Assembly (NCBI RefSeq): GCF_003346815.1
Contig: NZ_CP031217.1
Span: 1,240,001-1,304,000 of the forward strand
DNA from: Halarcobacter bivalviorum
GTDB taxonomy: Bacteria > Campylobacterota > Campylobacteria > Campylobacterales > Arcobacteraceae
Length of the DNA: 64,000 nt
Reading direction: 5' to 3'
This document shows, piece by piece, positions 561-18,473 of the stretch. The position numbers and the translations under genes are program-made. The notes below the pieces were generated by a model. That model saw nothing but the letters and a program-made list of their open reading frames with translations. It was not told the DNA's origin and did not search any database. Position 1 is the first letter of the stretch, and each line of letters begins with the position of its first letter.

Positions 561-2153
561 ATGACAATGCAAGTAAAATCAAAATTATTTCAAAATAAAA
601 CTTTAGGTGATTATTATTGGGCTTATTCTGATATTCTTAGAGATATAGGTATTAATGAATCAACTTATGACCAAAGAATTTTGGCTTTTATGGCTTTAAA
701 ACTTTTGATTGATAATAAAAAATTAAAATTTAATTTCGAATATGATAACAAATTTGGTTTAACAACTGCACTTTATAATAAATATAAAAAAGATAATACA
801 AAGTCTACATTTTTAAATATAGTTCAAAATATTGAAAGCTTTGGACAAAATCTAAATTATTTTAAACAAGAAAGCAAATATAATCCAGATATTTCTACAA
901 ATATATTAACTTATTTAAATCATTTTAAAACATTTGAGCTTGAAAGATATATTCAAGAACTACCAAATGACTATCTTGAAAATGTATTAGATATTTATAC
1001 ATGCAGGGCTAATTTTAAAGATTATCCAAAAGAGTTATATAAAGACTTATATGAAACTACAATATCTAGAATGAAAAAACTAAGTGGTGATTTAACAGGT
1101 CAACATTTTACACAAAAATCAATTATTCATTTGATGTGTGAAGCATCATCAATAGATGTTCGTACGAGAGAAAAAATTGCGATATATGATCCAACATGCG
1201 GGACTGCAAGTATGTTGATTGAATCAGCCCATTATTTTTATAACAAAAATAAAAAGCAAGATATAGAAGTATATGGACAAGAACTTCACGGACAAACATG
1301 GCTATTAGCAAAAATATTTCTAGAAATTAGTTCTATTGATGGTAAAAAACAAGGAATTAAAAATACTATTGCTTATGGAAATACTTTAACTAATCCTGCC
1401 TTTGCAAAAGGAATTGACAATCATAAAAGTTTCGATTTCATCATAGCTAATCCGCCATTTGGTGTAGACTGGAAACATAACTATGAAGATATATTTAATA
1501 ATATGAAAAAAGATTCTGAAAGTGATTTTTTTGTAATAAAAGATAAAAATAAAATTATAACTCCTAAAAAATCAGATGGACAATTTTTATTTATGCAACA
1601 TATACTTAAACTTATGCAATCTGAAAAAGGCAAAGGTAAAAAAGCTCAAGCAGCTATTATAAGTTCATCTACACTTATAAGTACAGGGAGTGAAACAAGT
1701 AGTGAAGCAAAGATAAGAAAAGCAATATTTAATACTGGTTTTGTAAATGCTATTTTAGAACAACCTAATGCAATGTTTACAAATACAGATATTAGCTCTC
1801 ATATTTGGTTCCTAGATAGTGACAAAAGTGATTCTATAAAGATAGTAAAAGCAGATACAAAAGAAGATGAACTTTTTAGTGGACATCCTATGCCAAAAGA
1901 TAAGATGAAACATAGCTATAGTGAAAAAAATATTAAAGATATCATAAAATATATTCAAAGAAAAAAAGATTATGAACATATTTCAAAAACTATAAAATCT
2001 AAAGACAGATATGAGATAAATATATCAAATGAAATAGGCTTCAAAGATGATAGTGAAGATGTAAGTTTTGATGAACTTACAAATGAGTTAAATATGCTTA
2101 TGAAACAGATGTGTGATGAGTTTCAAAATAATCCACTATTTGGGATAAAGTAG
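561..2153 (+). CDS. hsdM: Type I restriction-modification N6-adenine methyltransferase subunit HsdM
   Basis: The product is the 530-residue modification subunit of a type I-like system. With HsdS it transfers a methyl group from S-adenosylmethionine to adenine N6 in the target DNA. Its length matches HsdM of classical type I systems. An N-terminal helical HsdM_N-like region covers about residues 1-140. The methyltransferase domain follows, with the SAM-binding motif D210-P-T-C-G214-T and the catalytic N297-P-P-F300. The start at 561 has AAGG nine bases upstream; an ATG two codons later is possible. The stop is followed directly by the hsdS ATG, so the two are translationally coupled. No hsdR lies in the window; the next genes are McrB- and McrC-like instead. 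Family assignment is firm, target sequence unknown. Confidence 0.95.
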   Translation: MTMQVKSKLFQNKTLGDYYWAYSDILRDIGINESTYDQRILAFMALKLLIDNKKLKFNFEYDNKFGLTTALYNKYKKDNTKSTFLNIVQNIESFGQNLNYFKQESKYNPDISTNILTYLNHFKTFELERYIQELPNDYLENVLDIYTCRANFKDYPKELYKDLYETTISRMKKLSGDLTGQHFTQKSIIHLMCEASSIDVRTREKIAIYDPTCGTASMLIESAHYFYNKNKKQDIEVYGQELHGQTWLLAKIFLEISSIDGKKQGIKNTIAYGNTLTNPAFAKGIDNHKSFDFIIANPPFGVDWKHNYEDIFNNMKKDSESDFFVIKDKNKIITPKKSDGQFLFMQHILKLMQSEKGKGKKAQAAIISSSTLISTGSETSSEAKIRKAIFNTGFVNAILEQPNAMFTNTDISSHIWFLDSDKSDSIKIVKADTKEDELFSGHPMPKDKMKHSYSEKNIKDIIKYIQRKKDYEHISKTIKSKDRYEINISNEIGFKDDSEDVSFDELTNELNMLMKQMCDEFQNNPLFGIK

Positions 2154-3545
2154 ATGATAGGTACTTTAGATAGTCAAGTTATTGAAAAGTTTAAAGAGTT
2201 CCAAACTGAAACGAACCAGTATAATGATTTGAATATTGAAGATGTTGAGTTTGACAAGAAAACAATCAGTGATGTTATTGATGAATTTATTAAAGGTTCA
2301 ACTCCAAAATATTCATCAATTTCGACAAATACTATTGTGATAAAATCAGGACAAGCTAGAGGTAATTACAATGTGTTTGATTTTAAAAATACAGCTTATT
2401 TAGATTTAACCAAAGTAAAAAATCCAAAATATTTACAGAAAGGTGACATTTTAATCAATACGACAGGTGTTGGTACCGCAGGTAGAGTAACTCTTTTTGA
2501 TCTTGACGGGGGTTATGTATCTGATAGCCATATTACAGCTCTGAGATATGATTTAAACAGTTTTAATAAATTTTATTTGCTTCATTTTTTTGTGAATTAT
2601 GGTTTTAAAAAGCTTGAGGCTATGGCTGAAGGTTCTGGTGGACAAGTAGAGTTAAGTATGGATAAGATTAAGCCTTTAGTGATTCCAGTTCCAAAAGACT
2701 ATAATGAAAAATGTAAATCAATAGATATTCAAAAAGCTATCGTTGAATTTTTAGAGTTTTGGAAAATAAACTATACAGATGTTTTTAGACAAACCGTTAC
2801 ACACCAAAAACCAATATTAGAAAAAATAAAAAAAGCTTTAATTCCTGCAACTTTTAGACATGACAAAACTATTGTAAAAAGTTTTAATGAGTTTACAAAA
2901 TCAAATAATTATAAAATAAAACTTGAAGAAGTTACGTTCAAAAAAATAGATTTTTTTAATATTAAAAAAAATGATTTACTATCTCCTAAAAAACTAGAGA
3001 AAAATCAAGATTTAATCTTACAAAACTCTTCAAATAATGGTTACCCAGTCTATTCTGGTGCTATAGAACAATTGTGTAAAGTTGATGAATCAAAGTATCC
3101 AAATAAAATATTTGTACCAAATTATCAAAATCCAGATATTTCCTTTGCAAATAACGGTGATGGCTCTGCAGGTAGAAACTTTTTTGTACATACAGATAAA
3201 TACTTTGTTAATCAAGAGAGAACAGTTATATCATTTAAAAATGATAATGACTTTTATAGTTTATATATTTTAAATCAAATCATTAACATGAGAGATAAAT
3301 ATAGTATGAATCGTGAAAATCGACCAACACCAAAAGATTTACCAAAATTTGGTATAGAAATAACTCTTCCATCTCACAATACACTTTCTTCGTTTGATAT
3401 ACAAAAAATATTAGTTGAATTTTGGGAAATGATTTTAAATAATATGGATGAAAGATTTACAAAATTTGATAATATAGAAAGATTGACAGATAAAGTTGAT
3501 GAAGCTTTTTTATATAGAACTTTTAGCAAAATAGAATGGAGATAA
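2154..3545 (+). CDS. hsdS: Type I restriction-modification specificity subunit HsdS
   Basis: This 463-residue protein is the DNA sequence-recognition subunit that should direct HsdM to a bipartite site. It has the two-fold layout of type I S subunits. TRD1 covers about residues 33-190 and TRD2 about 255-412. Each is followed by a helical conserved region opening with a related motif: DIQKAIVEF at D191 and DIQKILVEF at D415. The 224-residue spacing shows the internal duplication. The ATG abuts the hsdM stop codon with no gap. Its TAA overlaps the ATG of the next gene as TAATG, so all four operon genes are tightly coupled. It appears full length with no frameshift. TRD sequences are highly variable, so no recognition sequence can be predicted. 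Confidence 0.93.
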   Translation: MIGTLDSQVIEKFKEFQTETNQYNDLNIEDVEFDKKTISDVIDEFIKGSTPKYSSISTNTIVIKSGQARGNYNVFDFKNTAYLDLTKVKNPKYLQKGDILINTTGVGTAGRVTLFDLDGGYVSDSHITALRYDLNSFNKFYLLHFFVNYGFKKLEAMAEGSGGQVELSMDKIKPLVIPVPKDYNEKCKSIDIQKAIVEFLEFWKINYTDVFRQTVTHQKPILEKIKKALIPATFRHDKTIVKSFNEFTKSNNYKIKLEEVTFKKIDFFNIKKNDLLSPKKLEKNQDLILQNSSNNGYPVYSGAIEQLCKVDESKYPNKIFVPNYQNPDISFANNGDGSAGRNFFVHTDKYFVNQERTVISFKNDNDFYSLYILNQIINMRDKYSMNRENRPTPKDLPKFGIEITLPSHNTLSSFDIQKILVEFWEMILNNMDERFTKFDNIERLTDKVDEAFLYRTFSKIEWR

Positions 3546-3547
3546 TG

Positions 3548-5347
3548 ATGGCAAAAGAAGAAATATATAGCCAAATAGACAAATTCAATATTAATATAGT
3601 AAATTCAAAAGAAACTAAAAACAATAAATATTACTATATTAATTCAGATGAAGCATTGATAAAATCACAATTTATAAATGAAATACAAAATGATACAGTT
3701 ATTAAAGAAAAATTAGATTCTATAGAAACTGTGATGGATTTATGTTTTGGTAGTGGGAATTTAACTTCACATATATTGCTAGAAAATCAAATAGAATATC
3801 AAAATATTATTTTAAATGATTACTTTTTAGATGAATGTAATCAGGAATTAGAAAATTTATTAGAAAATTGTGAATTGAACCAATGTAATTTTTTTAATTC
3901 TGATTGTTTTGAAGAAAATAGTGTTGATTTGCTTATTTTTAATCCTACTCATGGCGGTAAACCAACAAAAAAAGACTTTATTAATAAAGAAAATAAAGAT
4001 TTTGATGCTTTAAATAAAACATTATCTAAAATATTAAAGCCTAATTCACTTGTTATTTTTAGAGGTTGGAAAGAAGATTTTCAAGAATTGATATTCTCTG
4101 AATTTAAATATAAAAAAATATATTTAGATGGAAGTCAGTCTTTATATGTTTGCTACGACATAGAGGCTGAAGAGAAAGTTTGCTATGAATATACAAATAA
4201 TGAATTTATAGAAAATGAAAATTGTGAAATAGAAAAAAGTTCTAATGAAGAAGATTTAGATATTGGAGAACTTATGGAAGAACTAGAAGAAAATAAAACA
4301 GAAAATGATTTTAATGGTGTTCTTAAAACTGAATCGACGAATGTGAATAAAATTCAATTAGACAATACAAAAATAAAAAAAAGAAAATTTTCAGATGAAG
4401 TAAAAGGTAATTTAAATTTTCCGTATAAAAACATTCTTTTCAAAGGTGTTCCAGGTACAGGGAAAAGTAGAGCTATAAATGAGATTATCAGAAACAAATT
4501 AGAACTAGCAAAAAATGATAAAAATGTATTGAGAATTAATATTCACTCTGCATCTTCAAATAGTGATCTAATGCAAGGTATAGGAATATCTACAACTAAT
4601 AATGGAAATATAAAATATAGTGAAAAACAAGGTCTTATTCTAGATATCATTAAAAGAGCTACATTCAATCCAAATCAACCTTTTGTTTTAATACTTGAAG
4701 AGATACAAGAAAATAGTCTAAATGAGCTTATTGGTGATTTAATTTATTTAATTGAAGATGATAAAAGAGCAAAATTAATTGCAGACAATCTAGAATATGA
4801 AACTTATGAAGAACTTGTAGATAAATTAGTAAAAAAAGATGATACTTTAGATTATGTTGAAATACCTTATCTTGTAAATGATAGCACAGATTATAAGAAA
4901 ATGATAATGCCAAATAATTTATATATTTTCTGTACATCAAATTATAGAGATGATAAAAAGGTCATAGAAGATAATTTATTAAGAAGATTTGAAGTTATTG
5001 AAATTTATCCAAAGGAAACTATTGTTAATGATTATGCAAAAGATTTTTTTGATAAATTAAATAAATCAATTAATACTATTATGGAAAAACAAGGAGAAAT
5101 TCATCCTGATAGATTTTTAATAGGTCATGCTATTTGGAAAGATGTTAAAGATAAAGAAGCATTTTATAAAGCATTTTCTAAATTGATAATAGAGTTTAAG
5201 GACATAAGAGAAATAGAATTTGACATTTTTAAATCTATCGTTGAAGATTTGCCTTTTCCAGCTGATCTAAGTATTAATGTTGAAAATAGTTACTATGAAA
5301 TGATTAAAGATATACAATCGAAAATCAAATATGAATTCATCGATTAA
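3548..5347 (+). CDS. McrB-like AAA+ NTPase with N-terminal methyltransferase-like domain
   Basis: The product (599 residues from this start) joins two domains. Residues ~55-190 look like a Rossmann methyltransferase: D64-L-C-F-G-S-G-N resembles SAM motif I, and N132-P-T-H-G-G occupies the place of the catalytic NPPY/F motif but is altered. An acidic linker (~195-265) leads to an AAA+ domain of the McrB type. That domain has Walker A G300-VPGTGKS, Walker B LILEE at 384-385, and N465-Y-R-D468 where McrB has its NTAD signature, followed by LLRRFEV. McrB motors hydrolyse GTP and drive the McrC nuclease. Upstream ATGs exist at 3536 and 3545; 3548 is preferred because GGAG at 3538-3541 sits 6 nt before it. 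It overlaps or abuts both neighbours. The methyltransferase half could be an inactive DNA- or SAM-sensing domain; domain identities are from motifs only. Confidence 0.82.
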   Translation: MAKEEIYSQIDKFNINIVNSKETKNNKYYYINSDEALIKSQFINEIQNDTVIKEKLDSIETVMDLCFGSGNLTSHILLENQIEYQNIILNDYFLDECNQELENLLENCELNQCNFFNSDCFEENSVDLLIFNPTHGGKPTKKDFINKENKDFDALNKTLSKILKPNSLVIFRGWKEDFQELIFSEFKYKKIYLDGSQSLYVCYDIEAEEKVCYEYTNNEFIENENCEIEKSSNEEDLDIGELMEELEENKTENDFNGVLKTESTNVNKIQLDNTKIKKRKFSDEVKGNLNFPYKNILFKGVPGTGKSRAINEIIRNKLELAKNDKNVLRINIHSASSNSDLMQGIGISTTNNGNIKYSEKQGLILDIIKRATFNPNQPFVLILEEIQENSLNELIGDLIYLIEDDKRAKLIADNLEYETYEELVDKLVKKDDTLDYVEIPYLVNDSTDYKKMIMPNNLYIFCTSNYRDDKKVIEDNLLRRFEVIEIYPKETIVNDYAKDFFDKLNKSINTIMEKQGEIHPDRFLIGHAIWKDVKDKEAFYKAFSKLIIEFKDIREIEFDIFKSIVEDLPFPADLSINVENSYYEMIKDIQSKIKYEFID

Positions 5348-7535
5348 TATAATCTTTTTAAGAGAAAATGAAAAAAATATTTTCCAGACTCTTAAAGAAC
5401 AAGGGATAGATTCTTCTAAATTTGAGCATCATTTCATTGATTTATTCAATAAAATGTATAACAATGAAGTGGGCTATTATATCTTTGAACAAGATGAAAA
5501 GATTTATAAAATTATTGTTTTACCTAAAACTATAGAAGAAAAAAATCCTACTGCTCAAAAAGAATTTGTTGATTATTTACTTCACTATTATAGAGTAAAT
5601 AATAAATACAAATTTGATAAAACAAAGCAAATACCAAATTCACTTTTAAGTTTGGCGTTTGAATCAAACAATCAAAAAGAAAATAATGCACATAATCCAA
5701 TAGAAGTATTTGAATACTATAAATACAAATCTATTATTGATAAAATAGAAATATTTTTTAAGCGACATAAAAACTATAAAAGAGTTCAAGTTGATTATAA
5801 ATCACAAGACATAAAATATAAACTAAATCTATCAAAAAATATAAAAGAACTAGATAATACAAAAATACATCAAGTTCAAAATAGAGATTTAATGTATTCA
5901 GAAATAGCAACTATATGCTATGGGGCATTAAAATTGTTTTCAAAAAAAAGAATAGAAGCTATTAAAGATAGTAAATATCAAAAAGAACTACATCAAAACA
6001 CCCAAAAAGTTGTGTCCTTTATAGCTAAAAAATATAGTTTTGATAAAGGGTATAAATTTACTTTATCAAAACTAGGTAATTTTAAAACATCAAAAATATT
6101 TAGCAAGAAAAGTGATATGAAGCTTTTATTAGTAGATATTAAATCATTATTTGGTTTTGAGCAAATGTATGATGATAGTGAGATAGCAGTAACAAATAGA
6201 TATGATCTAAAAACAACATCATTTTTTATAAATCCTACAAGTTTTTATGAATGGTATGTTTATGATATATTAAAAGATTTTGCTTATAAAAATAGTTATA
6301 AAATTTTATTTGATAAGCATAGTAATAAGGAAAACAAAACAACCGTTGAATATGATTTAATTTCAAATGAATATGGCAAAGATAAAGAAAGAAGTGCAAA
6401 TCCTGATTATGTATTATTAAATGAATCAAAAAACATAAAAATAGTACTAGATGCAAAATGGAAAAGTATTAATAGCTTAGGAAAAATTGATTCAAATGAC
6501 TTCTTAAAATTACAAAGAGATGCTTTATTGTTAAAAAAACTAGAATCAAAAATAATTCCTTATTTAATATATCCATATTACTTGAATAATCAAGATCATA
6601 TTAGTATTTTAAAAGATGATGATTCATTGTTTAATTTTGGTATTTTACAAATAGATATGAATTTTACTGAAGAAAATAATAGTATAGATTTTAAATATGA
6701 TTTTGAAGAAATAGAAAAACAGATTGAATTAGATAGTAGAGAAGCTATTATAAAAGAATCTACACAAGAATTTATTGAAGATATTGAAGATAAAAGAAGT
6801 GAAGTAATAACAAAGCTATTAAATAGTGAAAATTTTGAAGATAAGGAAGAAATTTTTGCACAACTTGATGATGCTTTAATTAAATCATCAGATAAATTAT
6901 TAGAATCACTAGAAGAAAAAATTTCCCCTGAAGTACAAAATATTCTAGATATTTATGAAAATGTATTAGAAGAAGATAGTATAAAATTCCTAAAATCATC
7001 ATCTTCTATTTATAATTACTATAAAGATAAAAATTTTGAACATTTTGATTATTCTATGCCTGCTAGTGGTTTATGGAAATTAGTAGAATTAGAGCTAAAT
7101 ACATCTTTTTCATGGTTTCTTAGAATAAAAAGTAATGTATGTGATAATACTTGTCCATGGACAAATATATCTAATTCAAGAAGAAGTATTACTCAAGATT
7201 TAGAAAATGGGAAAAGAGTAAAATTAAATCAATATGAGTATAATGATAATACTAAACTGCAAGGTTTGATGTTAGGTAGTATTAGTTTATTATTACAAGA
7301 TAACAATACGATAGTTGAATTTGATGAAATAACTAATATTGATAGAACTTTTTTTGTATTGGAATTAATTACTTTTATGAAAAAAGTTATAAATTTACGA
7401 AATGAACATGCACATATAAAATCCATGTCTTTAGTAAAATATGAAGAGTTATATAATCTTCTTTTTAATGATAAAAAGGTAAATAGATTACTTGATATGA
7501 AAAAAACAATAATAAAAGAAATTAAACAATTATAA
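5331..7535 (+). CDS. McrC-like PD-(D/E)xK nuclease with C-terminal HEPN-like domain
   Basis: The product is a 734-residue partner of the preceding McrB-like protein, overlapping it by 17 nt. The middle of the protein carries the McrC/DUF2357-type nuclease core: P358-D359, then D374-A-K376 after a short beta segment, matching PD-x(n)-D-x-K. McrC is the nuclease and activator of McrB. An acidic helical region (~440-570) follows. The last ~120 residues contain GLWKLVELELN, LQGLMLGSISLLLQ and L-R690-NEHA-H695. This matches the helix-rich HEPN fold and its Rx4H ribonuclease motif with a polar residue after the arginine. Standard McrC (about 350 residues) lacks such a tail. The nuclease call is fairly strong; the HEPN call rests on motif and helix pattern. 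Confidence 0.8.
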   Translation: MNSSINIIFLRENEKNIFQTLKEQGIDSSKFEHHFIDLFNKMYNNEVGYYIFEQDEKIYKIIVLPKTIEEKNPTAQKEFVDYLLHYYRVNNKYKFDKTKQIPNSLLSLAFESNNQKENNAHNPIEVFEYYKYKSIIDKIEIFFKRHKNYKRVQVDYKSQDIKYKLNLSKNIKELDNTKIHQVQNRDLMYSEIATICYGALKLFSKKRIEAIKDSKYQKELHQNTQKVVSFIAKKYSFDKGYKFTLSKLGNFKTSKIFSKKSDMKLLLVDIKSLFGFEQMYDDSEIAVTNRYDLKTTSFFINPTSFYEWYVYDILKDFAYKNSYKILFDKHSNKENKTTVEYDLISNEYGKDKERSANPDYVLLNESKNIKIVLDAKWKSINSLGKIDSNDFLKLQRDALLLKKLESKIIPYLIYPYYLNNQDHISILKDDDSLFNFGILQIDMNFTEENNSIDFKYDFEEIEKQIELDSREAIIKESTQEFIEDIEDKRSEVITKLLNSENFEDKEEIFAQLDDALIKSSDKLLESLEEKISPEVQNILDIYENVLEEDSIKFLKSSSSIYNYYKDKNFEHFDYSMPASGLWKLVELELNTSFSWFLRIKSNVCDNTCPWTNISNSRRSITQDLENGKRVKLNQYEYNDNTKLQGLMLGSISLLLQDNNTIVEFDEITNIDRTFFVLELITFMKKVINLRNEHAHIKSMSLVKYEELYNLLFNDKKVNRLLDMKKTIIKEIKQL

Positions 7536-10022: not shown

Positions 10023-10835
10023 ATGAAAGAAAAAGATTTAATCAACTACGCAAAAACTTTACTAAATAATACTCTAACACTTGATGAAAAAACTATAAGT
10101 GAACTTGCATATGAAGAAATAAAATCTAAGAAAGCACTTTTAGAAGATGTCTTTCTTAGAAACAAAAATAAAGACAAGAAAGCATTTTTCATATTTGGTG
10201 GATATGGTTCAGGTAAAAAAGAGTTTGCAAGTGCATTAAATGAACTTTATCAAATTGATTTTATAGAGCATACAGAAATTAAAAAATATTGTAAATACTA
10301 TAATGGTTCAAATTCACATTTATTTGATAAAGCAAGTTTAGAGGGTGTTAATATTCTTATGGATACTGTTTTAAATAAAAGGTACTCTTTTATTTTAGAT
10401 GGTACTTTTTTTGAGTTTATAGATAGTGCGTTAGAAAAGAATTATGATATTGAAATAAATTTTGTATATAGACCTTTAGATATTGCAATAAAGAGTATAG
10501 AGATACTTGAAAACACTTTTTACAGTGGGTTCATAAGCTCTATAAATGCTGTAAATACAATAAAAGAAAAACACTCAAATGTAAGAGTAAATTTTTATGA
10601 TCTTCATAATGATCTAATTTTGAAAAATATTAATAGTTTAGATGAAGTTATTAACAAGAGTGAAGTTATGCAAAATGATATTAAATTTGCAAAAGATTTT
10701 TTATTAAAAAATTGTGATTTGGCTTTTAGAAAGCTGCAAGAGGTAATAAATACAGATTATCCAATAAAGAAAATAAAGTTATCTGATACTATGAAAAAGA
10801 ACTTAGATAAATTAGGGATAAAATATAGTGAGTAA
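10023..10835 (+). CDS. Zeta-toxin-like P-loop kinase
   Basis: The product is 270 residues. It has an N-terminal helical region (1-50), then a beta strand and P-loop, AFFIFGGYGSGKKE (G59 to E67). A later strand, SFILDGTFFEF, resembles the substrate-binding strand of zeta/PezT kinases, which phosphorylate UDP-N-acetylglucosamine and block wall synthesis. The residue after the P-loop lysine, normally Ser or Thr for magnesium, is Lys66 here, so activity or metal binding may be altered. Two metallophosphoesterase genes follow closely. It could instead be a nucleotide or polynucleotide kinase. P-loop kinase is well supported; zeta toxin is a moderate call. Confidence 0.65.
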   Translation: MKEKDLINYAKTLLNNTLTLDEKTISELAYEEIKSKKALLEDVFLRNKNKDKKAFFIFGGYGSGKKEFASALNELYQIDFIEHTEIKKYCKYYNGSNSHLFDKASLEGVNILMDTVLNKRYSFILDGTFFEFIDSALEKNYDIEINFVYRPLDIAIKSIEILENTFYSGFISSINAVNTIKEKHSNVRVNFYDLHNDLILKNINSLDEVINKSEVMQNDIKFAKDFLLKNCDLAFRKLQEVINTDYPIKKIKLSDTMKKNLDKLGIKYSE

Positions 10836-10859
10836 AAATATTGAAAAAAGAAACAAAAA

Positions 10860-11699
10860 ATGAAAATAGATATATTAAGTGATTTACATATAGATTTTTA
10901 TTTTAATCCTAAGGAAAAAATAGAAGATGCACAAATAAAAAAACTATATGAACCTATTATTAAAAAAGATAATAGAGAAATAGGTGATGTTCTTATTGTT
11001 CCAGGAGATATAGGACACTATAATCATCAAAATATAAAAGTATTAAAATACTTTAAAGAACACTATTATAAATATATAATCTGTATTCTTGGAAACCATG
11101 ATTATTATTTAGTTTGTAAAGATTCAAAACTTCAATTTAAAGATTCATTTGCAAGAACTGAAGAAATGAGATTAAGAATTAATAGAGAAGATAACTTATA
11201 TTGTCTTGATGGAAATATAATAGAAATAGAGGGAATTAAATTTGGTGGTTGTGATTCTTGGTATAACGATGGTTATTTAAAGAGAAAATATCCTAATGAA
11301 AATTTTCCAGTTAAATCAACTAATCAAATGTGGCATAACTGTATGAATGATTCTAACTTTATATTAGGTATAGAAAATTTTAATGACATATTTGAAATTG
11401 AGAAACCTAAGATTGAAGCAGTTTATAAAAATTGTGATGTAATGATAACTCATATAAATCCATCATGCAAAGATGAAAACATAAGTGAAAGATATCAAAA
11501 GAATCAAACAAATACATTCTTTACTTTTGAAGGAGAAGAGTATTTAAAAAATGGTTCTATGAAATATTGGATATTTGGCCATACTCATGAAGAACTTGAG
11601 TATGAAGAACATAATGTTAAATGTATCTGTAGTCCATTTGGATATCCTAATGAAAGTGGATTTGGTGTATGGGTTAATATTAGACAAATAGAGGTTTAA
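10860..11699 (+). CDS. Calcineurin-like metallophosphoesterase
   Basis: The product is a 279-residue cytoplasmic hydrolase with the complete set of calcineurin-fold metal ligands in order: SDLHID at the N-terminus (D8, H10), PGDIGH, LGNHDYY, a histidine in MITHINPS, and FGHTHEE near the C-terminus. Such enzymes hydrolyse phosphomono- or diesters using a dinuclear metal centre. No signal peptide is seen. It lies 24 bp after the zeta-like kinase and one base before a second phosphoesterase of a different subfamily, so the three genes form a transcription unit. The substrate cannot be told from sequence. A role opposing the upstream kinase is possible but unproven. Confidence 0.9.
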   Translation: MKIDILSDLHIDFYFNPKEKIEDAQIKKLYEPIIKKDNREIGDVLIVPGDIGHYNHQNIKVLKYFKEHYYKYIICILGNHDYYLVCKDSKLQFKDSFARTEEMRLRINREDNLYCLDGNIIEIEGIKFGGCDSWYNDGYLKRKYPNENFPVKSTNQMWHNCMNDSNFILGIENFNDIFEIEKPKIEAVYKNCDVMITHINPSCKDENISERYQKNQTNTFFTFEGEEYLKNGSMKYWIFGHTHEELEYEEHNVKCICSPFGYPNESGFGVWVNIRQIEV

Positions 11700-11700
11700 G

Positions 11701-12411
11701 ATGAATAAAGAACCAATTTATATTATAGGTGATGTTCATGGCTGTTATAAAAGTTTATTAGCTTTAATAGAACAGTTTCCAAATAAACAAAACTCCAAAA
11801 TTTGTTTTGTGGGTGATTTAGTTGATAGAGGATCTAATTCTAAAGCTGTACTAGATTTTGTAAGAGATAATAACTATGATTGCGTATTAGGAAATCATGA
11901 AAAATACTTTATTGAATACTCTCAATATTTAGAGAAAAGATTATCATATTTTGACATAAAAAGTTGGTTTGGTAAAAATGGTGGGAAAGAGACTATTAAT
12001 TCATATAGAGTAAATGGGATATTAGATGAAGCAGCTCATTTAGATCATGCAAAATGGTTACAATCATTACCTTTATATCTTGAATACAAAGATATGAAAA
12101 TTAAAAATAGATATCTGGTTGTTTCACACTCACATGTTTTTGATAAATGGAAATATAAAGATTATCCAAAAGATTCAAAAGAGTTTATGTCTTTTGAAAA
12201 TACAGTTTTAAATTCAAGATTTAAAAATTGTGATAATTTAGAAATATTTAATGTTTATGGACATACTCCTACTCAAAATCCAATATTAGAAGATTATAAA
12301 GCTAGCATTGATTTAGGTTGCTGTTATAAAGATATAGATGCTAATGCTAAGCTATGTGCTTTAGAATTTCCAAGTATGAAGATTTTTATTCAAGAGAATA
12401 TAGAAGAATAG
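11701..12411 (+). CDS. PPP-family metallophosphatase (lambda phosphatase/PrpE-like)
   Basis: This 236-residue protein carries the PPP-family signatures GDVHG (residues 10-14), GDLVDRG and GNHE in order, then a histidine in SHSHVF and VYGHTPT. This pattern belongs to bacterial serine/threonine phosphatases of the lambda/PrpA type and to diadenosine tetraphosphatases such as PrpE. Its end, IDLGCCYKD, also fits the family's IDxG motif. One base separates it from the preceding metallophosphoesterase. It is followed by a short hairpin at 12416-12430. Substrate (phosphoprotein, Ap4A or RNA ends) is unknown. Having two different phosphatases next to a kinase is unusual. Confidence 0.9.
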   Translation: MNKEPIYIIGDVHGCYKSLLALIEQFPNKQNSKICFVGDLVDRGSNSKAVLDFVRDNNYDCVLGNHEKYFIEYSQYLEKRLSYFDIKSWFGKNGGKETINSYRVNGILDEAAHLDHAKWLQSLPLYLEYKDMKIKNRYLVVSHSHVFDKWKYKDYPKDSKEFMSFENTVLNSRFKNCDNLEIFNVYGHTPTQNPILEDYKASIDLGCCYKDIDANAKLCALEFPSMKIFIQENIEE

Positions 12412-13008: not shown

Positions 13009-13719
13009 CTAAGTTTTAGCTAATGTTTCTAATTTTTTGTATATTCTACTAAGTTGTTGTGATTTAACTGTTATATCTGGAGCAAAAAAGGATATTGATT
13101 CCCTTATTGATATGATAAAACATAAAAAATCTATGGATCCAATAACTTTATAAAAATTTATTGGTTTACCATAGTCCCCATCACTGTATTCACCATGTAA
13201 TATACCATGACGATTAGTCTTATCTTCTAATGAATATTTTTGAGATTTTATGTATAAGTTATTTGTTGCAAAGTTCTTAAAAGATTCTAACATAGGTATT
13301 ATTTCTGAGACCATACCTAACTGGTTTTTTTCAACATCATTTTTTGTGTGTTCTGATAATTTTATAAATATCGGTTTAATATATTCCTCTTGAATACCTT
13401 TTGATTCAGCTATTTTTCTAGCTACACCTTCTACCACAGGTATTAGTCCTGAAACAGCAATATGATGTAGACCAAGAAAATGAGCTTTAATTGATTCACT
13501 AATAATTTGAGAATATTCAGATATTATTGGAACAAAGGGGTATCTATGCACAACCATTGCTGATAACCCATCAGCATTATAAATATGAGAAAGTAATTCT
13601 TCTAAGTTATTATGTTCATTTAGATTTACATCCTTAATAATATCTATAAGATAACCAATCCTAACATATGGTGGGATGAACCAACCTACATCATTGAATG
13701 TTTTTTGAAAAAAATCCAT
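13009..13719 (-). CDS. HEPN-motif protein, possible abortive-infection RNase
   Basis: The product (236 residues from MDFFQKTFND) is mainly helical and soluble. Near its end it has the motif N-R-H-G-I-L-H-G-E, an Rx4H signature (R170, H175) with His after the arginine, as in many HEPN ribonucleases. A hydrophobic helix, IGSIDFLCFIISI, follows. HEPN proteins often cut RNA in toxin or abortive-infection systems. An ATG six codons upstream (13737) exists, but GGAG lies six bases before the ATG at 13719, so that start is preferred. It stands alone, convergent with the tiny genes and divergent from the 12-bp repeat array. The nuclease function is inferred from the motif. Confidence 0.65.
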   Translation of the reverse strand: MDFFQKTFNDVGWFIPPYVRIGYLIDIIKDVNLNEHNNLEELLSHIYNADGLSAMVVHRYPFVPIISEYSQIISESIKAHFLGLHHIAVSGLIPVVEGVARKIAESKGIQEEYIKPIFIKLSEHTKNDVEKNQLGMVSEIIPMLESFKNFATNNLYIKSQKYSLEDKTNRHGILHGEYSDGDYGKPINFYKVIGSIDFLCFIISIRESISFFAPDITVKSQQLSRIYKKLETLAKT

Positions 13720-14084
13720 TATATTCTCCAACATCATTATATTTATTAAATTATATATAAAATAGCCTAAAACCTATTAAATAATATTTATAAAAATATT
13801 ATTTTAATTTATGATATATATATTAAAATCAAAACTTAAATAAATTTTCAAAATTTTATAAAATATTGCGGTACAAATTACGGTGATAATTTGGGTGCAA
13901 AAAGAGGTGTCAAGTTGGGTATAAATTGCGGTAGAAATTTGTGGCCACACTTGGCAAACTCGCTTACTCTTTTTTATAATATCTTTTATGGTTAAATTTT
14001 ATTTCATAAAAAATACCCTTTATTTATCTTCTAAAAATTTATAATATTTTGCTACTTAGTTTTTTATTTTCAAGGAAGGTAATT
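13720..14084. other. Non-coding region with tandem 12-bp repeats
   Basis: This is 365 bp without a supported gene. The part next to the HEPN-motif gene is plain AT-rich DNA that would hold its promoter. The middle holds the 12-bp repeat array described separately, ending in the palindrome GTGGCCAC (13941-13948). The last 100 bp lead to AAGGAAGG and the ATG at 14085. Confidence 0.5.
13864..13947. repeat. Tandem 12-bp direct repeats (iteron- or operator-like)
   Basis: Seven adjoining 12-mers run from 13864 to 13947. The first six keep GGT in exact 12-bp register at 13870, 13882, 13894, 13906, 13918 and 13930. Examples are TATTGCGGTACA, AATTACGGTGAT, AATTTGGGTGCA and AATTGCGGTAGA; the consensus is about AATTNCGGTRNA. 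The fourth unit is the most diverged and the seventh is degenerate. The array is next to a small basic protein gene and close to the island's right edge. It could be iterons, integrase/Xis arm sites or an operator array. Confidence 0.6.
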
Positions 14085-14495
14085 ATGCAACAAAAAAGAA
14101 ATAAGAGAAAGCCTAAAGAAGAACTTTTATCTAGTATTAGTGATTCTATAATATTACTTTTAAATCATTTGTATCCAGTTTCAGAACAACTTAGAATTAT
14201 AAATAAGACTTTACCTAAGAACTGTAGTGTTTCTGAAAAAACATATTTAAAGTATTTAAAAACTTATCTCAAATCTGACTATATAAAATATAAAAAGAAT
14301 ATATTTTTTGCAAATAATATGCAAGAGATGATAAGAGTTATTCTTGCTTTTAAAACATATGAAGAACAATTTGAGAATTTTAAGTTTAAAAAATTTAGAA
14401 GTGGTAATACTGAATTCAATCTATCATTAGAAGACTACATATACTTTTTTGAAGAATATTTTGAAAAAGAAAAAGATATTTATATAAAAAAATAG
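14085..14495 (+). CDS. Hypothetical basic protein next to the repeat array
   Basis: This 136-residue protein starts at 14085 (MQQKRNKRKPKEELL). The frame continues upstream to 14049, but AAGGAAGG lies just before 14085, so the shorter form is chosen. The N-terminal dozen residues are strongly basic. A segment around CSVSEKTYLKYLKTYLKSDY (about 52-71) resembles a DNA-binding helix-turn-helix, and the C-terminus is acidic and aromatic (YIYFFEEYFEKEKD). I do not recognise the family. Its place directly downstream of the 12-bp repeats makes it a candidate repeat-binding or replication/partition protein of the island, which is inference only. Confidence 0.6.
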   Translation: MQQKRNKRKPKEELLSSISDSIILLLNHLYPVSEQLRIINKTLPKNCSVSEKTYLKYLKTYLKSDYIKYKKNIFFANNMQEMIRVILAFKTYEEQFENFKFKKFRSGNTEFNLSLEDYIYFFEEYFEKEKDIYIKK

Positions 14496-14525
14496 TTCCA
14501 TAAAAATTTACTAATTTCTATATAT

Positions 14526-14545
14526 GGGTAGCTATAGGGTAGCTA
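14526..14545. repeat. Short direct repeat at the island/core border
   Basis: GGGTAGCTA occurs at 14526-14534 and again at 14537-14545, 11 bp apart, just before the end of aroE. It could mark the attachment site or be chance; the left end of the island is not in the window for comparison. Confidence 0.3.
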
Positions 14546-14556
14546 AGAAGAGAATT

Positions 14557-15360
14557 TTACTCTCCTCTTAATCCTTTTCTCATTGCTTCAAGTACTGAAT
14601 TATCGGCTTTTGTATTAGTAAATAGCTCAAATGCAAGTAAGCCCTGAAATAAAAGCATATCTTCCCCATCTTTTATTTCACAGTTATTCTCACGTGCCAA
14701 AGCTAAAAAGGGTGTGATTTTTCCATATACACAATCAAAAGCATACGAAGCTTTTTTCAGTATTGGCTCTAAAATCTCTCTATCACAAGGTAAGTATTCA
14801 TCTTTTAATCCAGCGCTTGTTGAGTTTACTACTAAATCATAATCTTCTGCTTGAAAATCATCCCAAGAATAAGCAAGGATATTCTCTTTTTTAAAGAAAT
14901 CAAGTTTTCCTTCACTTCTATTTAACACAGTTACTTTAATACCTTTTTCTTGAAGTGCTAAAGCAATAGCTTTTGCAGTACCTCCTGCCCCTAAAAGTAG
15001 GACATTTTTTACAGTACCAAAAGATTCAATTGCTTTTATAAAACCTGGAGCATCTGTATTATAAGCAATAACTTTTCCATTTTCATTTATATAAGTATTT
15101 ACAGCTTCTATTTTTTGTGCTATTCCTCTAACTTCATCTGCATTTCTATATGCAAACTCTTTATGAGGGACAGTAATATTTGCACCTTTATAGTTGCTTT
15201 GTAAAAAAACTTCTTTTATTTTATTTCCATCTTCAAGATGATGTTTTTGATATAGTCCATTAAAGTTGATTTCTTTTAAACCTGCATTTTGCATTTGAGG
15301 TGATTTTGAATGTTCAACTGGGTTTCCAAATATTGCAAATAAATTTTTATTTTCACTCAT
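14557..15360 (-). CDS. aroE: Shikimate dehydrogenase
   Basis: AroE (267 residues) reduces 3-dehydroshikimate to shikimate with NADPH in aromatic amino acid synthesis. The N-terminal substrate domain shows FGNPVEHSKSPQMQN (shikimate-binding SKSP) and NITVPHKE with the catalytic lysine. The Rossmann part has LLGAGGTAKAIALAL, then NRSEGK for NADPH. The C-terminal motif GEDMLLFQG is present. AAGGA stands before the ATG at 15360. The length is typical. It is transcribed towards the island and is the first clear core gene. Confidence 0.97.
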   Translation of the reverse strand: MSENKNLFAIFGNPVEHSKSPQMQNAGLKEINFNGLYQKHHLEDGNKIKEVFLQSNYKGANITVPHKEFAYRNADEVRGIAQKIEAVNTYINENGKVIAYNTDAPGFIKAIESFGTVKNVLLLGAGGTAKAIALALQEKGIKVTVLNRSEGKLDFFKKENILAYSWDDFQAEDYDLVVNSTSAGLKDEYLPCDREILEPILKKASYAFDCVYGKITPFLALARENNCEIKDGEDMLLFQGLLAFELFTNTKADNSVLEAMRKGLRGE

Positions 15361-15464
15361 ACTTATCCTTTATTATGGGGATTTTATCAGAAATAATATT
15401 AGAATAGATTAAAGTTTAATCTTCACATAGTAAAATAAAAAAGAAATAACTACTAGGAAAAATT

Positions 15465-16136
15465 ATGTCAAAAATTGAATATTTTTTTACAGATAAAAAT
15501 GATGGTAATTTAGCTTACCATGTAAATGATGATAAAGATAATGTTGATAAAAACAGAAAGAATTTAGAAGAAAAATATAATATTAAAATTGAAAATCTAT
15601 TTTATATGAATCAAGTACATGGGAATAATGTAGAGCTTATAGATGAAAACTCAAATAGGGTTATAGATAGTTGTGATGGAATTATAACTGCTTCAAAAAA
15701 CTTAACACTTATGGTAATGGTTGCAGATTGTATACCTATTTTATTTATGGATAGAAAAAAAGATGTAATTGCAGCTGTACATGCAGGAAGAAACTCTACT
15801 TTTCAAAAGATTGCTCCTCTTACTGTAGAGAAGATGATTAAAAACTTCTCTTGTAAGAAAGAGGATATTGAAGTAATAATGGGACCAGCTATAAATAGAT
15901 GTTGCTATGAAGTGAATGAAGAGTTAAAAAGTATTGTTGAAAATAGTTTTTCAAAGGAGTTTATTTTTGGTAACAATATTGATTTACAAGGTATAAATAA
16001 AATGTTACTAAATGATATAGGAGTAAGAAATATAAGTATATCTAATACATGTACTAAGTGTTCAGGTAAACCATATTTCTCATATAGAGTGGATAAAAAG
16101 TGTGGTAGGTTTGCTGGTCTAATTACCATCAAGTAG
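15465..16136 (+). CDS. pgeF: Peptidoglycan editing factor PgeF (YfiH/laccase-domain family)
   Basis: This 223-residue cytoplasmic protein belongs to the YfiH/DUF152 family, long labelled multicopper polyphenol oxidase. Members correct wrongly incorporated L-Ser in peptidoglycan precursors or act as purine nucleoside phosphorylase/deaminase. The metal-site motifs MNQVHGNNV, ADCIPILF, VHAGRNST and GPAINRCCYEV are all present in the usual order, and FSYRVDKKCGR closes the domain. A ribosome-binding site AGGAAA precedes the ATG. It is divergent from aroE and followed by an operator-like repeat array before malic enzyme. Confidence 0.9.
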   Translation: MSKIEYFFTDKNDGNLAYHVNDDKDNVDKNRKNLEEKYNIKIENLFYMNQVHGNNVELIDENSNRVIDSCDGIITASKNLTLMVMVADCIPILFMDRKKDVIAAVHAGRNSTFQKIAPLTVEKMIKNFSCKKEDIEVIMGPAINRCCYEVNEELKSIVENSFSKEFIFGNNIDLQGINKMLLNDIGVRNISISNTCTKCSGKPYFSYRVDKKCGRFAGLITIK

Positions 16137-16140
16137 TCAA

Positions 16141-16184
16141 TTATGTAAAAATTATGTAAATATCATGTCAAAATCATGTACCTT
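16141..16184 (+). promoter_or_regulatory. Four 11-bp direct repeats upstream of malic enzyme
   Basis: Four adjoining 11-mers start at 16141, 16152, 16163 and 16174: TTATGTAAAAA, TTATGTAAATA, TCATGTCAAAA and TCATGTACCTT. ATGT recurs at exactly 11-bp spacing (16143, 16154, 16165, 16176). This is one helical turn, the spacing of OmpR/PhoB-type regulator sites. Possible -10 boxes lie downstream: TATAAT (16215-16220) and TACAAT (16249-16254). The regulator is unknown. Confidence 0.55.
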
Positions 16185-16285
16185 AAACTTAAATTAAAGT
16201 TAATAAGCTGAAATTATAATTATTTAAAATTTTTAAGTTTCATTTAGTTACAATTGCACTTCAATTTATATATAAAGGTTATGTA

Positions 16286-17542
16286 ATGAGTGTAAAAGTA
16301 ACTAAGACAGAAGCATTAGACTATCATAGAGTGCCAAATCCGGGGAAAGTGGCAATTTCTACGACAACTGAGTTAAATACTCAAAGAGATTTATCTTTAG
16401 CATATTCACCAGGAGTAGCTTATCCTTGTGAAGAGATTAAGTTAAATCCAGAATTAGCATATGAATATACTTCAAAAAGAAATCTTGTAGCAGTAATTTC
16501 AAATGGTACAGCTGTACTAGGACTAGGTGACATTGGTGCCCTAGCTTCAAAGCCAGTAATGGAAGGTAAAGCTGTATTATTTAAAAAGTTTGCTGCAGTT
16601 GATTCATTTGATATTGAAATTGATGCAACTGATGTTGATAAATTTTGTGAAGCTGTAAAAGCTATCTCTCCTACATTTGGAGGAATCAATTTAGAAGATA
16701 TTAAAGCACCTGAGTGTTTTGAGATTGAAAAAAGATTAATTGAAGAGCTAAATATTCCTGTAATGCATGATGATCAACATGGTACAGCTATTATTACTAC
16801 AGCTGCACTTATGAATGCAAGTGAAATGATGAATAAAAATGTAGAAGAGATGAAAGTAGTTGTTGTTGGTGCTGGGGCTTCAGCAATTGCTTGTTCTACT
16901 ATGTATAAAGAGTTAGGTGTAAAAAATCTAATTATGTGTGATTCAAAAGGTGTTATCCACAAAGAAAGAACTGATTTAAATAAATATAAAAAAGATTTTA
17001 TGGTTGATGAAGTTATGACAATGGAAGATGCTTTTACTGATGCAGATATGGTTTTAGGTCTATCTAGACCTGGAACTTTTACAAAAGAGCATATTGCTTT
17101 AATGAGTGAAGAACCAATTATTTTTACTTTAGCTAATCCAACTCCTGAATTATTTCCAGAAGAAGTAAAAGAAGTAAGACCAAAAGCAATTGTTGGTACA
17201 GGAAGAAGTGATTTTCCTAATCAAGTGAACAATGTACTTGGTTTCCCTTTTATTTTTAGAGGTGCATTAGATGTACAAACTAGAAAAATTAATATGACTA
17301 TGAAAATGGCAGCAGCTAAAGCAATCGCAGATTTAGCAAAAGAGCCTCTTGCAGATGAACTTAAAAAAGAGTTTGGAGATTTAACTTTTGGTAGAGAGTA
17401 TATTATTCCAGTACCATTTGATAAAAGACTTTTCATTGAAGTTTCTAGTGCAGTTGCAAATGCAGCAGTAGAAACTGGTGTTGCAAGAGTAAAAGAATTT
17501 GATTTAGAAAGTTACAAAGATAAACTATCTAAAATGATTTAA
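16286..17542 (+). CDS. NAD(P)-dependent malic enzyme
   Basis: The product (418 residues) decarboxylates malate oxidatively to pyruvate. It is the short bacterial form without the C-terminal phosphotransacetylase-like domain of E. coli MaeB. N-terminal motifs include DLSLAYSPGVAYPC and RNLVAVISNGTAVLGLGDIG. The metal and substrate site is seen in GINLEDIKAPECFEIE and VMHDDQHGTAI. The nucleotide-binding fold reads VVVGAGASAIAC. FTLANPTPELFPEE is conserved. AAAGG precedes the ATG. Four 11-bp repeats in the upstream intergenic region suggest control by an OmpR-type regulator. It links C4 metabolism to pyruvate. Confidence 0.96.
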   Translation: MSVKVTKTEALDYHRVPNPGKVAISTTTELNTQRDLSLAYSPGVAYPCEEIKLNPELAYEYTSKRNLVAVISNGTAVLGLGDIGALASKPVMEGKAVLFKKFAAVDSFDIEIDATDVDKFCEAVKAISPTFGGINLEDIKAPECFEIEKRLIEELNIPVMHDDQHGTAIITTAALMNASEMMNKNVEEMKVVVVGAGASAIACSTMYKELGVKNLIMCDSKGVIHKERTDLNKYKKDFMVDEVMTMEDAFTDADMVLGLSRPGTFTKEHIALMSEEPIIFTLANPTPELFPEEVKEVRPKAIVGTGRSDFPNQVNNVLGFPFIFRGALDVQTRKINMTMKMAAAKAIADLAKEPLADELKKEFGDLTFGREYIIPVPFDKRLFIEVSSAVANAAVETGVARVKEFDLESYKDKLSKMI

Positions 17543-17559
17543 ATCTTTATTTTGCTATT

Positions 17560-17623
17560 ATTCCAATCTTTAAATAAATTGGAATTAACAAGTTCCTTTA
17601 GAAATTCTATTTTTAAAGGAACT
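17560..17623 (+). terminator. Double hairpin between malic enzyme and purU
   Basis: ATTCCAAT (17560-17567) pairs with ATTGGAAT (17578-17585). AGTTCCTTTA (17591-17600) pairs with TAAAGGAACT (17614-17623). The second ends 16 bp before the purU start, so this may be a terminator or a leader structure for purU. Confidence 0.5.
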
Positions 17624-17639
17624 TTATATTAGGAACAAA

Positions 17640-18473
17640 ATGAAAGAATATATACTTTTAATTGATACTCATGACTCTAAGGGACTTGTATACAATGTCT
17701 CTAAAATCCTTTTTGCAAATAACTTAAATATTGAAACAAATGCTGAATTTGTTGATAAAGATACAAATAAATTTTTTATGAGAACTGTTATTTCAGGAGA
17801 TGTAAATCCTAATTTACTTCTTAAAGAGCTAAATGAAGCTTTACCAAAAGATTCAACAATTAAATTAAATCAAAAATCTAAAAAAGATATTGTTATTTTA
17901 GCAACAAAAGAGTCTCATGTATTAGGAGATTTACTTATTAGATATATTGATGGTGAGTTAGATGCAAATATAAAAGCAGTAATTGCAAATCATGAGTATT
18001 TAAGAGATTTAGTTGAGAAGTTTGATATTCCTTTTCATTGTATTAGTGCAGATGATATGGAAAGAGAGACTCATGAGGATTTAGTTATTGAAAAAATTCA
18101 AGAGTATACTCCAGAGTTAATTGTACTTGCTAAATATATGAGAATTTTAACTCCTAAGTTTGTAAAAACTTTTCCTAAACAAGTATTAAATATTCATCAC
18201 TCATTTTTACCAGCATTTATTGGAGCTAATCCATATAAACAAGCACACCATAGAGGTGTAAAAATTATTGGAGCTACTGCACACTATGTAACTGATGATT
18301 TAGATGAAGGTCCAATTATTTTTCAAGATGTTGTAAATGTTGACCATTCTTATTCTTGGCAAGATATGAGAAGAGCAGGTAGAAATGTTGAAAAAATTGT
18401 ATTATCAAATGCTTTACAGCTTTTATTAGAAGATAGAGTATTTGTTTATGAAAATAAAACGGTAATTTTATAA
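17640..18473 (+). CDS. purU: Formyltetrahydrofolate deformylase
   Basis: PurU (277 residues) hydrolyses 10-formyl-tetrahydrofolate to formate and tetrahydrofolate, balancing one-carbon pools and supplying formate for purine synthesis. An N-terminal ACT regulatory domain covers about residues 1-80 (DSKGLVYNVSKILFANNLNI). The formyltransferase-like catalytic domain has VLNIHHSFLPAFIGANPY with the catalytic His, and GATAHYVTDDLDEGPII with the catalytic Asp. The length is typical. Its stop codon overlaps the ATG of trmL by one base (TAATG), so the two are co-translated. Confidence 0.96.
   Translation: MKEYILLIDTHDSKGLVYNVSKILFANNLNIETNAEFVDKDTNKFFMRTVISGDVNPNLLLKELNEALPKDSTIKLNQKSKKDIVILATKESHVLGDLLIRYIDGELDANIKAVIANHEYLRDLVEKFDIPFHCISADDMERETHEDLVIEKIQEYTPELIVLAKYMRILTPKFVKTFPKQVLNIHHSFLPAFIGANPYKQAHHRGVKIIGATAHYVTDDLDEGPIIFQDVVNVDHSYSWQDMRRAGRNVEKIVLSNALQLLLEDRVFVYENKTVIL

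Follow-up and report, generated by a model that had tools for sequence, protein, structure and literature searches.

An hsdMS operon of Halarcobacter bivalviorum that lacks hsdR and encodes a McrB/McrC-like pair with a predicted pseudo-methyltransferase domain

The DNA analyzed here is a 64,000-nucleotide stretch of the Halarcobacter bivalviorum genome (NCBI RefSeq assembly GCF_003346815.1, contig NZ_CP031217.1, positions 1,240,001 to 1,304,000 of the forward strand; hereafter the window). Near its start lies an operon (positions 561 to 7535) that encodes a Type I-like methylase, HsdM with HsdS, followed by an AAA+ McrB-like protein and a PD-(D/E)xK McrC-like protein. The complete host chromosome contains no detectable HsdR, the gene order recurs in related genomes, and the McrB-like protein begins with a domain, here called X, that is predicted to be a catalytically dead methyltransferase and whose sequence distances follow those of the HsdS scaffold. 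With a probability of roughly 0.6, judged from sequence, we read the operon as a restriction-modification system without HsdR, in which HsdMS would mark self DNA, X would dock a McrBC-type engine on HsdS, and unmethylated sites would be restricted.

Gene content and the absence of HsdR

The operon consists of four open reading frames on the + strand; the first two abut directly (0 nt), and the next two junctions overlap by 10 nt and 17 nt. The initial annotation had described them as coupled without gaps and had named all four products; both the coupling and the identities hold, while domain X, a C-terminal extension of ∼290 residues in the McrC-like protein and an integrase upstream had been overlooked. 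The genes, in order, are:

561-2153, + strand: hsdM, N6-methyladenine (m6A) methylase subunit, 530 aa; N6_Mtase match, likeness to EcoR124II M
2154-3545, + strand: hsdS, specificity subunit with two target recognition domains (TRDs), 463 aa; PADLOC, Methylase_S and alignment
3536-5347, + strand: McrB-like protein, N-terminal domain X plus AAA+ domain, 603 aa; AAA_5 and E. coli McrB matches
5331-7535, + strand: McrC-like protein, PD-(D/E)xK core (about aa 1-440) plus C-terminal extension, 734 aa

HsdM matches the Pfam N6_Mtase family (165 bits), its closest solved protein is EcoR124II M, and its catalytic motifs are intact: motif I reads DPTCGTAS from position 1188 and motif IV reads NPPF from position 1449. 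HsdS is recognized by the PADLOC Type I specificity models and by Methylase_S, and alignment resolves two TRDs and two conserved regions. TRD1 is common to the window and loci L058 and L075 (78-81% identity), whose TRD2s are three different ones, and L064 has TRDs in common with L067 and L075. These alignments indicate that TRDs are swapped freely between loci, in keeping with the changeable specificity subunit proposed initially.

The McrB-like protein matches Pfam AAA_5, and its NCBIfam McrB match falls far under the cut-off of that model; E. coli McrB is the best solved match of its AAA+ domain (6e-13). An alignable homologue of the McrC-like protein, in L064, passes the Pfam McrBC model (PF10117, 34.5 bits), and the PD...DAK nuclease signature is invariant in all six McrC homologues. 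No PADLOC model recognizes the McrB or McrC protein of the window, and promoter and terminator scans around the operon gave results at chance level. The engine motifs are:

4445-4468, + strand: Walker A of the AAA+ domain, GVPGTGKS
4940-4951, + strand: McrB signature NxxD, here NYRD (motif class from PMC11090510)
6402-6458, + strand: nuclease residues PD (6402-6407) ... DAK (6450-6458), invariant in six homologues

The absence of hsdR, first noted for the window, extends to the whole host genome, which is a single contig of 2.68 Mb representing a complete chromosome. Searches for the HsdR motor (PF18766) and HSDR_N (PF04313) returned zero matches across this chromosome and gave matches in control genomes. 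This rules out an HsdR encoded at another place in the chromosome, and no intact hsdR accompanies this hsdMS. Among the ResIII matches of the host, the three inspected correspond to Mfd, to a DEAD helicase and to a PLD-helicase. A second hsdMS locus is found at 381 kb (L021:8186-11183 and 13709-17773), behind another integrase and likewise with no adjoining HsdR; a 1354-aa protein with no Pfam match is encoded nearby. The related genomes G328, G381 and G210 do possess HsdR, in each case next to its own hsdS and either on a different contig or at a great distance.

Domain X and the HsdS scaffold

The ∼245 N-terminal residues of the McrB-like protein are modeled as a class I S-adenosylmethionine (SAM) methyltransferase, with a mean predicted local distance difference test (pLDDT) of 76 and a predicted template modeling score of 0.80, and M.TaqI and M.BseCI, both DNA adenine methylases, are among the Foldseek matches of the model. 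A B3 domain, also considered for X, was ruled out on the basis of this fold. The SAM loop FGSGN is retained. Motif IV, which is NPPY/F in DNA adenine methylases, is degenerate, NP(T/Q)(H/I)GG, in 11 of the 11 aligned homologues. From the model and these motifs, we infer that X is catalytically dead and possibly binds SAM. The window, L058, L064-L067 and L075 encode X as a fusion with the AAA domain; in L061/L070, L071, L072 and L073, X has its own gene ahead of a diverged AAA and a PD-(D/E)xK protein. In the McrB protein of G328 (L058:10959-13115), X and the AAA domain are separated by ∼115 additional residues that find no counterpart in the window, and the X gene of G210 (L062:5804-6607) contains in-frame TAG stops, a copy that looks decayed or mis-sequenced. 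The regions compared below lie at:

2718-2852, + strand: conserved scaffold region CR1 of HsdS, between the TRDs; co-varies with X
3390-3542, + strand: conserved scaffold region CR2 of HsdS, C-terminal; co-varies with X
3536-4270, + strand: domain X, aa 1-245, class I SAM methyltransferase fold, predicted catalytically dead
3737-3763, + strand: X motif I, SAM loop DLCFGSGNL, kept
3941-3958, + strand: X motif IV, NPTHGG replacing NPPY/F

Co-variation analysis of pairwise distances across the seven fused loci, with permutation p values, connects X to the HsdS scaffold. The distances of X correlate with those of CR1 (r 0.92, p 0.002) and CR2 (r 0.85, p 0.003), and are uncorrelated with those of TRD1 (0.19), TRD2 (0.14), HsdM (0.11) and the AAA domain (0.33). 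Two mosaic loci display the same pattern. L075 is window-like in HsdM (78%), TRD1 (79%) and AAA (70%) but falls into a different class over the stretch that runs from CR1 to the end of X, its X being 32% identical to that of the window and 52-57% identical to those of L067 and L066. L064, conversely, has TRDs common with this other class and the scaffold and X of the window class. Because X tracks CR1 and CR2 and the two mosaics agree, we read X as docking on the HsdS scaffold.

The same data bear on a close variant of this reading, which differs in where X would sit. X could be a second M-like subunit that replaces one HsdM on HsdS, or senses SAM or methylation there, such that an M-X-S complex would choose between methylation and restriction. 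Its methyltransferase fold, its SAM loop and distances that follow the HsdS scaffold would all suit such a role. The solved relatives of the window HsdM include 7vru/7vs4, which we take to be a complex of two different M subunits on one S. However, motif IV of X is lost, and the distances of HsdM in these loci do not follow those of CR1/CR2, which suggests that X may contact another surface; we regard this variant as unlikely.

Broken specificity genes offer a further, weaker indication. In both copies of the operon in G328, hsdS is disrupted by a 2-nt insertion while mcrB and mcrC remain open, and in L075 hsdS is split by a TAA codon with mcrB and mcrC again open. A broken S beside an open B and C fits S-dependent cutting, an argument weakened by the possibility of half-S proteins or of sequencing error.

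Linkage, distribution and genomic context

Scanning genome contigs of 84,980 species with an HsdM alignment identified 13 loci, 11 titled Campylobacterota and 2 from one unclassified bin; the patterns derive from four Campylobacterota sequences, which would leave distant relatives undetected. All undecayed operons on sufficiently long contigs show the order hsdM-hsdS-X-AAA-nuclease, and in none of the loci does an hsdR adjoin, several contigs ending early. L064 carries a RhuM-family gene between hsdM and hsdS (L064:1711-2625). Profile searches with X covered 397 genomes of the phylum plus three families. About ten other genomes returned strong matches, and those inspected sit directly behind this HsdM-HsdS. 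We take the matches in G414, G584, G588, G676, G735 and G737 to be loci of the HsdM scan, based on match positions and lengths. A weaker match in G161 (E 1e-10) and those in G130 and G229 were inspected in context and are not this system. Overall, the system is rare, occurring in about 1 genome in 100. A contig scan with the McrC protein alone and searches of viral contigs, and of plasmids with X and McrC, yielded nothing useful, a phage search returned only short AAA matches, and the nearest plasmid HsdM matches are ∼26% identical.

Outside this group, a helicase or HsdR gene follows in three of the five annotated HsdM loci (Halorussus, Cupriavidus and Halobacterium); the Polaromonas locus has no helicase or HsdR gene after S, and that of Aquabacterium has no annotated S. 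The McrBC pair therefore occupies the position where HsdR is often found. The nearest relative of the engine is encoded in G040 (L060:8248-14759), in a neighborhood comprising a Vsr-like gene, two C5 methylases, a 243-aa gene with no family match, and McrB-like and McrC-like genes. The AAA domains of the two systems are 58% identical and the McrC cores about 37%. One engine type apparently serves different methylases, with LlaJI as a parallel.

These distributions also address whether the genes are chance neighbors on an island, namely an hsdMS that lost its hsdR beside an unrelated McrBC. The setting invites the question, as the operon lies on an integrase island and its relatives on Tn7-like elements, where defense genes collect. 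Yet the same order is found in about ten other genomes, from several families and on different elements; the genes overlap, X co-varies with the HsdS scaffold, and the X-profile searches found no strong-X McrBC locus devoid of HsdMS. We accordingly reject chance pairing, for which only a very slight probability remains. The proposal of the initial annotation that hsdMS and the McrBC-like pair form one unit is borne out by this conserved, HsdR-less order on different mobile elements, and unlinked occurrence in relatives, which would have spoken against it, was not seen: the strong X homologues in the searched Campylobacterota sit behind HsdMS.

The island itself is marked by two features at its probable ends:

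1-213, + strand: 3' end of a tyrosine integrase gene that starts upstream of the window (L009:11110-12213)
14565-14664, - strand: 3' end of aroE, probable other island boundary, repeated (77%) just upstream of the integrase

The repeat is a 100-nt stretch (L103:826-925, window position -1175) that is 77% identical to the aroE 3' end and encodes the same C-terminal peptide. This arrangement suggests a probable island of ∼15.7 kb inserted at the aroE 3' end, from window position -1175 to 14664, with intact aroE at the far end; behind the integrase, the operon comes first among the cargo. Further cargo (10023-12411) comprises a zeta-toxin-like kinase and two calcineurin-like phosphoesterases. Tn7-like elements carry the copies in L058, L059 and L072, and partial elements are present in L069 and L075. 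The G328 chromosome holds two identical 16.6-kb copies (L058:404-17034 and L059) with tnsABC-tniQ and the operon, including the same 2-nt hsdS insertion.

Proposed mechanism and relation to known systems

In the proposed system, HsdM and HsdS would together form an m6A methylase of the Type I kind, marking host DNA at a site that the two TRDs determine, and the McrB-type AAA+ ring and McrC-type nuclease would form the restriction engine. X, the predicted pseudo-methyltransferase, would dock this engine on the HsdS scaffold, holding the complex together through a surface on CR1 and CR2 and filling the role that HsdR's own contacts play in Type I enzymes. An unmethylated site would then license the motor, the AAA+ ring acting on DNA, presumably by nucleotide-driven translocation, and McrC cutting it. 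That unmethylated rather than methylated sites would be cut, a choice that the initial annotation had left open, is suggested by the intact motif IV of HsdM, since cutting self-methylated DNA would be suicidal, and by the precedent of LlaJI.

Each component has a known counterpart. As in Type I restriction-modification systems (HsdRMS, EcoR124I-like), the window has an EcoR124II-like HsdM, a two-TRD HsdS with TRD exchange, and the order M-S-engine; unlike them, its genome has no SF2 HsdR motor or HSDR_N, and an AAA+ McrB with a separate McrC stands instead. With the McrBC family it shares the NxxD AAA+ motor and the McrC nuclease, but E. coli McrBC reads methylated DNA on its own (PMC1459862), whereas the window pair replaces HsdR. 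The closest parallel is the LlaJI/BsuMI-type Type II systems, in which an AAA+ McrB-like motor and a PD-(D/E)xK McrC-like nuclease likewise form the restriction part, with methylases in the same operon. The initial annotation had drawn this comparison, which proves apt, as the nearest core relative, G040, is itself a C5-methylase/McrBC operon of that layout. LlaJI combines the McrB/McrC-like R1 and R2 with two C5 methylases and targets unmethylated DNA in vivo (PMC1459862), and R1 recognizes its own site via an N-terminal B3 domain (PMC12707154). The window differs in its methyltransferase-like N-terminus and its m6A-type HsdM/HsdS partners.

A Type IV enzyme would represent the opposite strategy: a methyltransferase-like pocket of X-McrB would recognize modified DNA, for instance with m6A or phage bases, and HsdMS would be a regulator or separate marker. 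The literature lends this some plausibility, as modified DNA is the substrate of canonical McrBC, whose McrB subunits have varied reader domains (PMC12707154), and deletion of mcrB relieved phage resistance in Campylobacter jejuni (PMC8713573). Type IV restriction is defined by the cutting of modified DNA and the lack of a cognate methylase; cognate methylase genes are present in the window operon. If the m6A methylase encoded there is active, self DNA would itself become a target. The fixed linkage to HsdMS and the methylase-paired, LlaJI-like operon of the closest core relative likewise argue against a Type IV enzyme, which we consider quite improbable.

A different output has to be weighed for the last feature of the operon:

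6651-7532, + strand: C-terminal extension of McrC, helical, with a HEPN-like RNEHAH at 7398-7415

McrC might also, through this extension, be a HEPN ribonuclease, with RNA cutting or abortive infection instead of or besides DNA restriction. The window, L058 and L075 share these ∼290 extra McrC residues at 66% identity, and the RNEHAH motif (Rx4H, with N after R) is conserved near their end in all three; HEPN domains are also described in CoCoNuT McrBC relatives (PMC11090510). On the other hand, such a motif arises in 5% of shuffles, the extension is modeled with a pLDDT of only 42, homologues being too few, and no family matches it. Moreover, McrC lacks the extension in G040, L064 and L066, and so it is not core to the system. 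HEPN identity is a lead only, and a ribonuclease output appears highly improbable.

Several points weigh against docking and restriction through HsdS, the reading that we nevertheless favor. To our knowledge, recruitment of such a motor via HsdS has no precedent, LlaJI.R1 binding its own site. The co-variation rests on few loci, seven fused, and on distance permutations with no tree-based control; CR2 and X adjoin, so a single recombination tract could move both. The McrC protein of the window has no direct Pfam match. Finally, R1.LlaJI is reported to show no GTPase activity in vitro (PMC1459862), which makes use of the motor uncertain here.

McrBC-like restriction subunits, as in LlaJI, and McrBC-methylase associations are already known. 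Bell et al. 2024 associate McrBC branches with Type I systems and methylases, deferring details, and the section concerned (PMC11090510) names no pseudo-methylase domain tied to HsdS, which the window has. Judging by titles and the openings of abstracts, full-text literature naming McrB, McrC, HsdM and HsdS does not describe the operon, REBASE and subscription papers lying outside this search. A possible claim to more concerns the HsdMS-X-McrBC operon, for which no description was found. Only tentatively might it be regarded as a new restriction class, in which a pseudo-methyltransferase adaptor would couple an exchangeable HsdS to an AAA+ McrBC engine replacing HsdR, with a C-terminal ribonuclease-like domain in some members.

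If the favored reading is correct, HsdR is replaceable, and a ring-shaped motor-nuclease of a very different kind can take directions from the same exchangeable specificity subunit. X would then be a candidate adaptor, and methylation sensing through HsdS would be testable via part swaps. This suggests that some hsdMS loci dismissed as hsdR-less orphans may be complete systems with another engine.

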